A stretch of 64,000 nucleotides of DNA. It comes from Alphaproteobacteria bacterium (GTDB taxonomy: Bacteria; Pseudomonadota; Alphaproteobacteria; DSM-16000; Inquilinaceae). Position 1 is the stretch's first letter. Each line of letters opens with the position of its first letter. Under the pieces are notes generated by a model that was not told where the DNA came from, did no database searches, and saw only the letters and a program-made list of their open reading frames with translations. A program made the position numbers and the translations under genes. Below are positions 11,893 to 17,943 of this stretch, in pieces. The stretch spans positions 124,001-188,000 of the forward strand of contig JANQSN010000058.1 of assembly GCA_028284045.1 (NCBI GenBank), written 5' to 3'.

Positions 11893-12675
11893 ATGGGAAT
11901 CGGAGCCATCACCGCAGAGATCGACTTTACGCAGGTCCTGCTCTACGCCTTCTGGCTCTTCTTCGCGTATCTCATCTTCTATCTGCAAAAGGAAAGCCGC
12001 CGCGAGGGCTATCCGCTGGAGGCGGACGAGACCGGAAAGCTGGAAGACCCCGGCTTCGTCTACATGCCCCAGCCGAAGACCTTCCGGCTGCCGCATGGCC
12101 ATGGCGAGGTGCAGAAGCCCGACGGCAAGCGCGAAACCCGCGAGCTGAAGCTGCGGCCGCTGCAGGTCTGGGGCGGCGCACCGAAGGAGCCGACGGGCGA
12201 CAACCCCTTGCTGGACGGCGTCGGCCCCGGCGCCTATGCGGAGCGGGCGGACCATCCCGACGTGACCTTCGAGGGCAAGGTCAAGATCGTGCCGATCCGC
12301 ATCGCGGAGGGCTTCGGGCTGTCCGCCAACGACCCCGATCCGATCGGCATGGATGTGGTCGGCTGCGACAACAAGGTCGGCGGCAAGATCACCGATGCCT
12401 GGGTCGACAAGTCGGAGCATCTGCTGCGCTACTATGAAGTCGCACCCACCGGCGCGAAGGACGGCGACCGCGTGCTGTTGCCGGTGCCGTTCGCCGTGGT
12501 GCGCGGCCGTCGCCGCCAGATCTACGTGCATGCCATCACCGGTGCGCAGTTCGCCGATGTGCCGAGGACCAAGCAGCCCGAGCAGGTCACCCTCTTGGAA
12601 GAAGAGAAGATTTGCGGCTATTACGGAGCAGGCCTGCTCTACGCCACGCCGCAGCGGACAGAGCCTCTCTTCTAA
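11893..12675 (+). CDS. puhA: Photosynthetic reaction centre H subunit
   Basis: From the ATG at 11893 (GGAGG nine bases upstream) the product has 260 residues, the normal H-subunit length. It has one membrane helix near the N-terminus (about residues 12-31, TQVLLYAFWLFFAYLIFYL), then the cytoplasmic PRC-barrel domain with DPGFVYMPQPKTF, PIRIAEGFGLSANDPDPIGM, a GKITDAWVD stretch and LLPVPFAVV. The H subunit caps the L-M core and shapes proton entry to QB. The conserved Glu/Asp-rich regions expected around the proton path are present, but individual residues were not mapped. It is followed 77 bases later by the puhB-puhC fusion. Confidence 0.97.
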   Translation: MGIGAITAEIDFTQVLLYAFWLFFAYLIFYLQKESRREGYPLEADETGKLEDPGFVYMPQPKTFRLPHGHGEVQKPDGKRETRELKLRPLQVWGGAPKEPTGDNPLLDGVGPGAYAERADHPDVTFEGKVKIVPIRIAEGFGLSANDPDPIGMDVVGCDNKVGGKITDAWVDKSEHLLRYYEVAPTGAKDGDRVLLPVPFAVVRGRRRQIYVHAITGAQFADVPRTKQPEQVTLLEEEKICGYYGAGLLYATPQRTEPLF

Positions 12676-12752: not shown

Positions 12753-13898
12753 ATGTACAGCGAAGGTGTCGCGGCTGACGACCAGCCGCCGGCGAGGGAT
12801 CAGACAGCGCAACCGATACGGGGCCTGAACGCCCGGCTTCAGCCGGGCGAACGGGTTCTGTGGCAAGGCGCGCCGCGCTGGCGCAGCTTCGCGCTGAGCG
12901 TCTTCCACACGCGCCTGATCATTCTCTATTTCGCCGTCTATGCCGTCTGGCAGGGGGTGTCCGTCAGCACCGATGGCGGCGCGCTGGCCCAGGCGCTGTT
13001 TGCCGGCGTCACGACGGCTGCGCTGGGCGTGCCGGCGGTCGGCATCTTCTGGCTGATCGCCTGGCTGGTTCAGCGCACGACGGTCTACACCATCACCGAC
13101 CGGCGGGTGGTCTTCTCCATCGGCGTCGCCTTGCCGAAGACCTTCAACTTCCCATTGAAGGAGATGGACGGCGCGTCGCTGCGGACAGAGCCCAACGGCA
13201 CCGGCAATATCTCGCTGGCGTTGAAGCCGCACACCACCATCGCCTATCTGATCCTGTGGCCGCATGTGCGGCCCTGGCGGCTGCGCCGGGCGGAGCCGAC
13301 CTTGCGCGCCATCCCCGAGGCCGAAGCGGTCGCGCGCCTGCTGGCCGACGCCTTCCGGGCGGCCACCGCCGAGGCGCCGCCGCCGGCCGCCGCGGCCGAG
13401 GCGGCGGCACCGATCCAGGCCCAGGAGGACCCGGCGGCGGAGGAAGCCCGCCAGCGGATGCGGCGCGCGCGGGTGCCGCTGATCGCGGCGGCCAGCCTGG
13501 TCGTGCTGTGCGCGGTGCTGGTGGTGATCGGCCGGTTCACCGGCATCGGGACGGTGCAGGAGGCCGAGGGTACGCCCGCGCTGGTCTACCAGCTCCGGTT
13601 CGAGGACCTGGGCGAGGCGCGCATCGCCGTCGTCGATGCCGAGGGCGGGGAGACCCTGACCGTCATCGAGACCGGCACCGACGGCCTGCTGCGAGGCGCC
13701 CTGCGGGGTCTGACGCGCAGCCGCACGCTCGCCTCCGTGCCGGTGGATGCGCCCTACCAGCTTATCCGCTGGGATACCGGGCGGATCACCCTGACCGACC
13801 CCGAGACCGGCGAAGAGGTCCCACTGGACGCCTTCGGCCCGGTCGGCCCGGGCGCCATGGCGGACCTGATGGCGCTGATCGGCGCGGGGGACGACTGA
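12753..13898 (+). CDS. puhBC: Fused PuhB-PuhC photosynthetic complex assembly protein
   Basis: The single 381-residue frame contains two proteins that are normally separate. Residues 30-205 match PuhB: PGERVLWQGAPRWRSFA, two membrane segments (about 52-70 and 86-106), the PH-like YTITDRRVVFSIGVALPKTF and AYLILWPHVRPWRL. Residues 205-240 are an Ala/Pro/Glu linker. Residues 241-261 form a third membrane helix, and 275-376 match PuhC: LRFEDLG, VVDAEGGETL, GLLRGALRGL, YQLIRWDTGRITLTDP and PLDAFGPVGPGAM. PuhB assists reaction-centre assembly and PuhC organises RC-LH1. No internal stop or frameshift is visible. The usual alternative is adjacent puhB and puhC genes. Confidence 0.9.
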   Translation: MYSEGVAADDQPPARDQTAQPIRGLNARLQPGERVLWQGAPRWRSFALSVFHTRLIILYFAVYAVWQGVSVSTDGGALAQALFAGVTTAALGVPAVGIFWLIAWLVQRTTVYTITDRRVVFSIGVALPKTFNFPLKEMDGASLRTEPNGTGNISLALKPHTTIAYLILWPHVRPWRLRRAEPTLRAIPEAEAVARLLADAFRAATAEAPPPAAAAEAAAPIQAQEDPAAEEARQRMRRARVPLIAAASLVVLCAVLVVIGRFTGIGTVQEAEGTPALVYQLRFEDLGEARIAVVDAEGGETLTVIETGTDGLLRGALRGLTRSRTLASVPVDAPYQLIRWDTGRITLTDPETGEEVPLDAFGPVGPGAMADLMALIGAGDD

Positions 13899-14370: not shown

Positions 14371-15672
14371 TCAGGGGCCGGCCGCTGCTAGCCCGCCGAT
14401 GGCCGTGACGCTTGCCTGGACATCGCCGGCGAAACCTTCGATCAGCGTCTTGGCCTCGTCGATGCTGATCTCGGGGTTCTCCAGCGCCTCCCTCAAGGCT
14501 GCGTGGGCGCTTGCGATCTGCAGGCCGGCGCTGATGGGGTCGTGCTCCAGGAGGGTTCGCAGTTCGCGGAGCTGGCTGTCGACGTCCTGTACAAGATCGG
14601 CCGTCCGACGCGAGCGCTCGATGGAGCTTTCGGTCTCAGCGTCTAGCGCCGTCCGGTTCGCCTGTTTGACCAGTTCGAGCAGACGTCTTTGATAGCGTCG
14701 CACATTCGTATCGAAGTCCACCAAGGACTGGTGGCAGGCGAGCGCGCCGAGTTGGGCAACCAAAGGATCCGCGGCGATCACCGACTGGCGGATCAGGGCG
14801 AGCCGCTCGCCTTCCAGAACCAAGTCAAGCAGCCCGACAGCAACGCCGCCCACGGCCTTCAGGGCGCCGGAAATGGCCACCCCCTTCGGACCGGCCAGGG
14901 CGGCCAGATTGGCAATCTTGGTGACGAACTGTTCGGCGGCGGTCTCTACGTCGTCGACGTCCTCGGCAGCGGCGGCGGTTGCCAGGGCCTTGCCGTACTC
15001 GCTTAGAAGCAGCAACGGGTCGTTGCGTCTGACGAGCGCGCCTTCGACGACCGCGATGTCGATGCCGCTCTCGTTGAAGGCGTTGGTCACCGCGGTGCTG
15101 TCTTCGTAGTCCTGCTCATTCGGATCGTCGATGGTGATCTCGTCGGTGTCGATCCCGCAGAGGTCGAGCCTTGCGTTGGTTTCCCAGTCAACGACGGCGG
15201 TGGCCCCTGGGTTGGCCCATGGGCTGGCGCCTCGGCCGGTTGCCGGCGTGTCCGAAGCGGCACCAACCAGACATCTTTCCGCGGGGCCTGTGCCCACACC
15301 GCCGACCAGGCAGACGTTGCAGCCCGCCGCGACGTGCTGCGTGCGGGCGAGCCACGCCTGGCGTATGGCGCGCTGTCGGGAGTCCGGGATGGATGCCAAG
15401 ACCGCCGGGATCGTCACCGGACCGAAGAAATCGGGTAGGGGCGCACACGCCGGCTGGATCTTGAGACGGCCGGCGCGGTCGACGGCCATATTCGCTGCGA
15501 CCGATTCCCGGTGGCTAAGCGCCAGCAGCTCGGCAGTGCGATCGTTCAACTGCTGGTTCTGGTCGGCGGCGTCCTGGATCGACTGTCCGAATGAGGCGGC
15601 CAGGTCCCGGGCCTCGCCGCCGCAGCCGCCCAGCAAGCCCAAGGAGGCCACAATCGCCAGCATGCGTTTCAC
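14371..15672 (-). CDS. Unknown lipoprotein
   Basis: The 433-residue protein starts at a GTG with GGGAG seven bases upstream. Its signal ends in the lipobox LLGGC (Cys17), so it should be lipidated by Lgt and LspA. The N-terminal half has further cysteines (PACAP, CNVC, RCLVG, LCGID) and an acidic patch DEITIDDPNEQDYEDS. The C-terminal half is helical, with a glycine-alanine segment (ISGALKAVGGVAVGLLDLVL) and long charged helices. No family is recognised. It sits behind pufM in the same orientation, beyond a strong hairpin, so co-transcription with pufLM is doubtful. Confidence 0.7.
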   Translation of the reverse strand: MKRMLAIVASLGLLGGCGGEARDLAASFGQSIQDAADQNQQLNDRTAELLALSHRESVAANMAVDRAGRLKIQPACAPLPDFFGPVTIPAVLASIPDSRQRAIRQAWLARTQHVAAGCNVCLVGGVGTGPAERCLVGAASDTPATGRGASPWANPGATAVVDWETNARLDLCGIDTDEITIDDPNEQDYEDSTAVTNAFNESGIDIAVVEGALVRRNDPLLLLSEYGKALATAAAAEDVDDVETAAEQFVTKIANLAALAGPKGVAISGALKAVGGVAVGLLDLVLEGERLALIRQSVIAADPLVAQLGALACHQSLVDFDTNVRRYQRRLLELVKQANRTALDAETESSIERSRRTADLVQDVDSQLRELRTLLEHDPISAGLQIASAHAALREALENPEISIDEAKTLIEGFAGDVQASVTAIGGLAAAGP

Positions 15673-15908: not shown

Positions 15909-17090
15909 CTATTGCGCCGGAGCGGCCTCGCCCTCTGCGGCCTCCTCCGCCGCCGGTGCTTCTTCCGTCGCCGCGGCGTCGGCGCCTTCGCCCGCCGCCA
16001 GGGCATCGCCCTCGGCTGCCGGGGCATCGGCGGCGGGGGCCGCCTCTTCCGGCTCGGCGGCGGCCGGTTCGGCCGGGGCGGGCTCGGCGGCCGGGACGAT
16101 GACGATCTCGGGCTCCAGGCCCCAGCTCGACACCGTGGAGTCCGGCGTGCGCGGCCACATGGCGAAGTTCTGCGGGACGATGCCGCTCTTCTGGCCCCAG
16201 ACCGTCCAGTTGCTGACCACGGTGCCGGTGATCAGGATGCCGATGCCGCCGGTCAGCGTGGTCAGGACGGCGAACCACCACGCCCAGCGATGGATCGATT
16301 CCGCCGTGGCGTTGAAGCCCATGGTCCAGCGCCAGAACAGGGCCGCCCGTTCCGAGCCCGTGCCGCGGTCGCAGATCTGCTCCACCTCCCGCTCACCGCC
16401 ATAGCGGGTGACCGCCAGGATGGTCGCGCCGTGCATCGCGAACAGCAGCGCCGAGCCGTAGAGGAATGCGATCGACAGCGCGTGGAACGGATTCCAGAAG
16501 AGATTGCCGTAGATGATCGAGAAATTGTTGGTCCAGTCGAGATGGGTGAAGATCCCGAACGGCACGGCGTGATGCCAGCTTCCCATCAGCAGCGGGCGGA
16601 TGAAGCCCAGCACCAGATAGAGGAAGATCGCCGAGGCGAAGGCCCAGCAGACATGCGTGCCGAGCCCCAGCGCGATCGCCCGCCGGTACATCCGCACCCA
16701 CCACAACAGGATGGAGGCGGTGATGAAGAAGCCGGAGATCAGCCACCAGCCGCCTTCGTCGAGCGGCGGCAGGATCTTCAGCCCGTGCTCTGCCAGTGGC
16801 GGATCGAGCGAGAGCCAGAAGAACTCGCGCACGAACAGAACCGGGTTCCAGCCGACCGAGGCGGCCATGTTGAGGCCGATGATCGAGAACCCGACCATGA
16901 AGCAGATGATCGAGGCGACGCCCAGGAAGCCGAGATAGATCGGCCCGATCTGTGCGTTGCCGATGCGTCCCAGCAGATGGAAGATCTGCGGTTGGATGAC
17001 GCGTTCATAGTCGCCCTGGGCCACCGGCACGCCCATGTCGGGGTGGCCGGCCACCTGAACGCTGGTGAAGATGTTTTGATACTCTCTCAT
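15909..17090 (-). CDS. pufM: Photosynthetic reaction centre M subunit with long C-terminal extension
   Basis: The ATG at 17090 (GAGGAG upstream) gives 393 residues, against about 305-325 in the family. Five membrane helices are visible. Chlorophyll and iron ligands are present: His183 in [10 protein letters not shown], His203 in [10 protein letters not shown], and iron ligands His220 (AMHGAT), Glu235 (REVEQI) and His267 (SIHRW). The normal protein ends around [20 protein letters not shown] (299-317). Residues from about 325 onward are a low-complexity Ala/Pro/Glu tail rich in PAAE-type repeats. The tail is in frame with normal codon use. The gene follows pufL by 19 bases. No cytochrome pufC follows. 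Confidence 0.97.
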
Positions 17091-17109: not shown

Positions 17110-17943
17110 TCACTGGCCGGCCCAGGTGAGCGTCTCGCGGATGAACTCCCACCATGTGATCCAGGAGGTGGAATGGATGGGCGGTCCGCTGATGATGATG
17201 CAGACGGCGCTCCAGAACCCTGAGGAGAGCGCGAGGAACAGGCCCAGCCGGTGGATGCCCAGCGTTCCCATCGAGTAGCCGATGGTGTCGCGGAAATAGG
17301 TGTCCTCGTGTTCCGGCTGCTTGACTTCCTGGCCCTTCGGCACATTGGCGGCGGACAGGATCATCCCGCCGTGCAGTGCCAGCGCGAAACACGTCGTGAA
17401 GAAGAACGCGATCGCCAGCATGTGGATCGGGTTGTAGTGGAAGTTGCCGTACTGGTAGCCGGTGAACCACACCCAGTTCAGATGGCTGAAGATCCCGTAG
17501 GGGAAGCCGTGGCCCCAGGCGCCCAGCATGAACGGCCGGAAGATGTTCAAGGTGACGAAGGCCAGGATGGCGACGCCGAAGGCGATCGGCACGTGGTAAC
17601 CGATGCCCAGCTTGCGGCAGATCTCGACCTCCCGCAGCGCCCAGGAGCAGAAGGCGCCCGTGGCGCAGATCGTGATGATCTGCCAGAGCCCGCCCTCCTT
17701 CATCGGCGCCAGCGCCAAGCGGTAGCTGATGTCCGGCGGGTTGATGCTGATCAGCCAGGGGTTCCAGGTCGGTCCGATCGCCGCCCCATAGAAGATCAGG
17801 GCGGTCCCGAGGATCGAGAAGAAGACCGTGGTGACGCCGAAGAACCCGACATAGAACGGCCCGACCCAGAAATCGAACAGATCCCCGCCGATCAGCGTTC
17901 CCCCGCGAACGCGGTACTTCCGCTCGAAGCTCAGCAAAGCCAT
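17110..17943 (-). CDS. pufL: Photosynthetic reaction centre L subunit
   Basis: The start [20 protein letters not shown] at 17943 gives 277 residues, the family length, and matches L subunits from residue 1. A longer reading to 18042 is not conserved. Ligands visible: His154 (FSHLNW) and His174 (NPIHML) for the bacteriochlorophylls, His191 (ALHGGM) and His231 (GIHRL) for the non-haem iron, and Glu213 in [10 protein letters not shown], equivalent to the QB-site proton donor. It forms the L-M core of the type II reaction centre in the inner membrane. It is the first structural gene after a leader of nearly 500 bases, and no pufB/pufA precede it. Confidence 0.98.

Follow-up and report, generated by a model that had tools for sequence, protein, structure and literature searches.

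PuhB and PuhC, which aid assembly of the purple-bacterial reaction centre and the LH1 antenna as known from work in Rhodobacter capsulatus, are fused into one polypeptide in an alphaproteobacterium of the family Inquilinaceae. We found the fusion gene, here called puhBC, in a 64,000-nucleotide stretch of its genome (hereafter the window). The fusion is genuine, recurs in other genomes as a single clade and is co-inherited with the PufL and PufM reaction-centre subunits. Our reading, which we hold at a probability of roughly 0.77, is that puhBC encodes a single-protein assembly factor inherited together with a reaction centre of its own. The role in assembly is inferred, without support from expression, proteomics or phenotypes. 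The relevant features of the window are as follows.

11893–12675, + strand: puhA, reaction-centre H subunit, directly upstream of puhBC (TIGR01150, 345.7 bits)
12753–13898, + strand: puhBC fusion gene, 381 amino acids in one open frame (NF040894 and TIGR03054 both above cut-off)
12798–13319, + strand: PuhB domain, residues 16–189 (NCBIfam; Pfam bPH_2; AlphaFold2 model)
13365–13469, + strand: Ala/Pro/Glu linker, about residues 205–239 (low-confidence stretch of the model; codon scan)
13470–13871, + strand: PuhC domain, residues 240–373 (NCBIfam; AlphaFold2 model)
15909–17090, − strand: pufM, reaction-centre M subunit (TIGR01115, 504.8 bits; ligands and lineage-specific residues)
17110–17943, − strand: pufL, reaction-centre L subunit (TIGR01157, 410.1 bits; tested ligand histidines all kept)

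On translation, the puhBC frame runs for 381 codons without an internal stop and ends in TGA. Residues 16–189 match the PuhB model NF040894 at 203.8 bits (E=1.7e-60, profile positions 3–176 of 176; curated cut-off 110 bits), with the Pfam bacterial PH domain bPH_2 at residues 108–196. Two membrane helices followed by a bacterial PH-like domain satisfy what we required of a PuhB family member. Residues 240–373 match the PuhC model TIGR03054 at 118.3 bits (E=2.9e-34, profile positions 3–137 of 138; curated cut-off 55 bits) and comprise a single membrane helix and a predicted periplasmic domain. This half lacks an N-terminus of its own, the usual short one (often MSD...FP) being replaced by the linker, and it does not qualify as a separate gene. 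A first-pass annotation, made from sequence alone, had claimed an uninterrupted frame with complete PuhB and PuhC signatures, an Ala/Pro/Glu linker at about residues 205–240 and a membrane helix. All of this held, and the separate alignment of the two halves that it proposed as a check gave a strong family match for both, the C-terminal half to PuhC included.

An AlphaFold2 model shows two well-folded domains and a flexible linker. Confidence is high in the PuhB half (pLDDT mostly 88–98 from residue 21 on) and good in the PuhC half (mostly 78–93 over residues 271–380), and low at about residues 207–226 of the linker, after which a short helix follows. Membrane helices lie at residues 53–73, 78–109 and 243–263, and the mutual placement of the halves is poorly defined (pTM 0.60). 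An arginine-rich stretch before the PuhC helix suggests a topology with the N-terminus, PH domain and linker inside and the PuhC domain outside, that is, a predicted cytoplasmic PH domain and linker and a predicted periplasmic PuhC domain. The earlier suggestion that fusion ties the PuhB domain to the PuhC periplasmic domain needs refining: on the predicted topology the linker is cytoplasmic and joins the cytoplasmic domain of PuhB to the membrane anchor of PuhC, not directly to its periplasmic domain. Searching the PDB with the model recovered PH-like domains only, and weakly (best E 3.7e-3); comparison with PDB sequences found no relative of the fusion protein.

Could a sequencing or assembly error have deleted the stop codon between two ordinary genes? 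Two observations favour this explanation: several relatives carry puhB and puhC in the same frame with one stop between them, and a codon scan showed several codons of the window linker to be a single substitution away from a stop. Against it, the same fusion occurs in five independently assembled genomes, at 41–46% identity to the window fusion, and forms one clade with it. Two are Azospirillaceae bins (L062 in G811 and L064 in G810), two are Chromatiaceae bins (L063 in G834 and L065 in G835) and the fifth (L196) lies in G856, a genome drawn from the family sample of G835. The three gammaproteobacterial hosts are in or near Chromatiaceae. Furthermore, the linkers of these three lack any start codon in the stretch of about 29 residues that precedes the PuhC membrane helix, which leaves the fused product as the sole plausible reading there. 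We regard the error explanation as virtually ruled out. Two of the other modules sit on contigs of 43.5 and 45 kb; the remaining three are on 4.9–6.9 kb contigs of metagenome bins and might have been misbinned. Four of the five other fusion genomes have PL bin names matching those of a metagenome study of Porites lutea coral skeleton (PMC9868349). Their origin in coral skeleton is conceivable and suggestive for ecology, based on the name match alone.

Fusion is the exception among puhB and puhC loci, in keeping with the earlier claim that they are normally separate neighbours. The genes are separate in 76 of 80 named loci, which were the best of 269 loci confirmed by scanning, and every other standard pair examined likewise consists of separate genes. 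They adjoin each other in 26 alphaproteobacterial loci, often with an ATGA overlap or in one shared frame interrupted by a single stop, and loss of one stop codon could therefore create such a fusion. Long open reading frames resembling fusions in L008, in G617, G641, G833 and G821, and in G905 proved to be separate genes in different frames; frames of 324 amino acids in G831 and G832, from the genus of L008 and G833, were left out of that check. A contig scan of genomes with the single fusion protein as query gave no match, and plasmid records yielded matches to the PuhB half only, none reaching 80% query coverage.

A second objection accepts the continuous frame and supposes that the working proteins are nevertheless separate, either because an internal start also yields free PuhC or because a protease cuts the linker. 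In its favour, the window linker contains an in-frame ATG at 13458–13460, just before the PuhC helix, with a GGAGG beginning 19 bases 5' of it, and the linker is predicted to be flexible. However, a ribosome binding site would normally lie closer to its start codon, the ATG is not conserved among the fusions, and three of the others have no plausible internal start. We consider separate products unlikely; the ATG and GGAGG may perhaps be a relic of an old puhC start, an inference we offer only as a possibility. Barring cleavage or internal initiation, the fixed 1:1 ratio of PuhB to PuhC proposed in the first-pass annotation follows from their being one polypeptide.

The history of the fusion is tied to that of a reaction centre. 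In a tree of concatenated PuhB and PuhC, the six fusions form one clade with support of 100/96, the bootstrap being not fully settled; in separate trees of PuhB and PuhC, five fusions group together with SH-aLRT values of 88 and 94. PufL and PufM from five fusion genomes also form a clade (100/100) despite belonging to alphaproteobacterial and gammaproteobacterial hosts. Because the fusion clade cuts across host taxonomy in this way, horizontal transfer is indicated, and in all probability the fusion had a single origin and travels with a distinct lineage of reaction centres. The first-pass annotation had missed this aspect: the fusion marks a module of puhA, puhBC, pufL and pufM that moved between Alpha- and Gammaproteobacteria and apparently replaced the standard genes here.

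Gene order within the module varies. Both Azospirillaceae modules read puhA-puhBC-pufL-pufM, the gammaproteobacterial L065 and L196 read pufL-pufM-puhBC followed by pufBA-like antenna genes, and in the window puhA-puhBC (+) converges on pufLM (−). The reaction-centre genes are grouped apart from the pigment cluster and their tree is discordant with host taxonomy, as in a mobile reaction-centre mini-cluster of the Citromicrobium type. Window PufLM is 79.5% identical to that of the G811 module; against the standard PufLM from two genomes of its own family, the figures are 72.4 and 70.2%. The window encodes H, L and M subunits and keeps all the cofactor ligands tested (His L153, L173, L190, L230, M182, M202, M219 and M266, and Glu M234), which fulfils the sequence criteria for a functional type II reaction centre. 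Several residues set this lineage apart from the rest of 23 aligned rows, including Trp for Ser at L158, Phe or Ala for Asn at L159, Trp for Tyr at M198 and His for Glu at M173. On possible carriage by an integrating conjugative element, the window offers only the observation that it contains no tRNA gene. Between the puh and puf genes lies a lipoprotein-like gene of 433 codons (14371–15672, −) without a Pfam or NCBIfam match. The last 70 or so residues of window PufM also form a tail rich in Ala, Pro and Glu, in style resembling the PuhBC linker, and a long tail is likewise present on the M chain of PDB entry 9h19.

Mobile reaction-centre sets are already known as a kind. Citromicrobium sp. 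JL354 carries an incomplete second cluster, pufLMC-puhABC, on an integrating conjugative element (PMC3338782). Like the module described here, it is a compact set of reaction-centre genes only, with pufLM beside puhABC, and horizontal transfer is thought its likely origin; unlike it, puhB and puhC are listed separately, pufC is present and the standard set is retained (PMC3338782). Hyphomonas sp. DS1.007 has a second PufM copy, reported from a PufM tree, and so likewise combines reaction-centre subunits of different origins within a single genome; PuhB and PuhC go unmentioned in the relevant passages of that paper (PMC12700997). Compared with the standard purple-bacterial puhA-puhB-puhC operon, the window shares the domains and their order after puhA, and both halves pass the NCBIfam models. 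It differs in that puhBC is one polypeptide, does not lie beside bciE-acsF-puhE and is placed with pufLM of a separate lineage. The literature we searched contained no report of a PuhB–PuhC fusion, of its tie to one lineage or of the apparent replacement.

Evidence for replacement comes from the rest of the window genome. A genome search found only two Photo_RC genes, both inside the window; it gave no further PuhC scoring above 13 bits, and the fusion protein matched nowhere else. The lack of a separate puhC elsewhere and the five independent homologous fusions dispose of two refutations that the first-pass annotation had itself named, a distinct puhC gene and a joining error. The main photosynthesis cluster is on another contig, C10 (locus L178, 5153–14453). 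There, bchX-bchY-bchZ-pufB-pufA is followed by a radical-SAM gene on the opposite strand instead of pufLM. On the same contig, lhaA is followed by a small open reading frame and acsF-puhE-hemA-bchE, with puhABC absent in between. The small frame matches one found just after puhC in dozens of relatives, and we read it as bciE, following the gene order in PMC10576062. Both gaps, at the pufLM and puhABC sites, are internal to the contig and contain no detectable reaction-centre remnants. Contamination is an unlikely source of C10, given tetranucleotide correlations of 0.94–0.96 with the two halves of the window.

Standard pufLM and puhABC are thus absent from their usual sites, and the genome search recovered no reaction centre other than the window module, which probably represents a replacement of the standard set. 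On the simplest reading, acquisition of the module came first and loss of the standard genes followed, the direction of replacement being inferred.

Matters differ in the other five fusion genomes, all of which also carry a separate, standard PuhC or puhB-puhC pair; G811 has a clear second full pufLM pair. This coexistence could suggest that the fused module is a spare copy, silent or in decay, without a photosynthetic role. The same suspicion is raised by one Chromatiaceae bin, in which the pufM beside the fusion (L063, 3678–4214) is split over two frames, possibly as a decaying copy or through an assembly fault. Two points weigh against the idea: the module is the only reaction centre found in the window genome, where pigment and antenna genes are kept, and all five complete PufLM sets from fusion genomes retain their ligand residues. 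We judge a silent copy highly improbable.

Under our preferred reading, PuhBC would assist the assembly of purple-bacterial (type II) reaction centres of a distinct lineage, whose genes travel compactly as puhA, puhBC, pufL and pufM, joined by pufBA-like antenna genes in two gammaproteobacterial members. The PuhB half would sit in the membrane with its PH-like domain and the linker in the cytoplasm, and the PuhC helix would cross the membrane and deliver the PuhC domain to the periplasm. A single PuhBC molecule could then touch both faces of the assembling H–L–M complex with a constant 1:1 ratio of its halves, and matching H, L and M subunits would always be inherited along with it. In the window genome, the module would have replaced the standard puhABC and pufLM, with the original pigment and LH1 antenna genes kept.

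A bolder reading makes PuhBC an assembly factor dedicated to a second kind of purple-bacterial reaction centre. Several bacteria, four of the six being from coral-skeleton metagenomes to judge by their bin names, would maintain this centre alongside the standard one to suit other light or redox conditions. Fusion would separate the two assembly lines, and the window organism would have switched completely. The changed residues L158 Trp, L159 Phe or Ala and M198 Trp adjoin bacteriochlorophyll ligands. On balance we lean slightly against this reading.

The one-piece assembly factor that we favour would offer a natural joined version of two poorly understood proteins, making their order of action and stoichiometry testable in one gene. 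The fusion also labels a lineage of reaction centres found in more than one class, which here apparently swapped out a native reaction centre, with antenna and pigment genes retained. Exchange of reaction centres between organisms, and the coexistence of two in one cell, become directly testable. Elsewhere in the window genome (C27, 26614–28123), we observed two LHC-type antenna gene pairs that lie apart from pufBA and are probably LH2-like.
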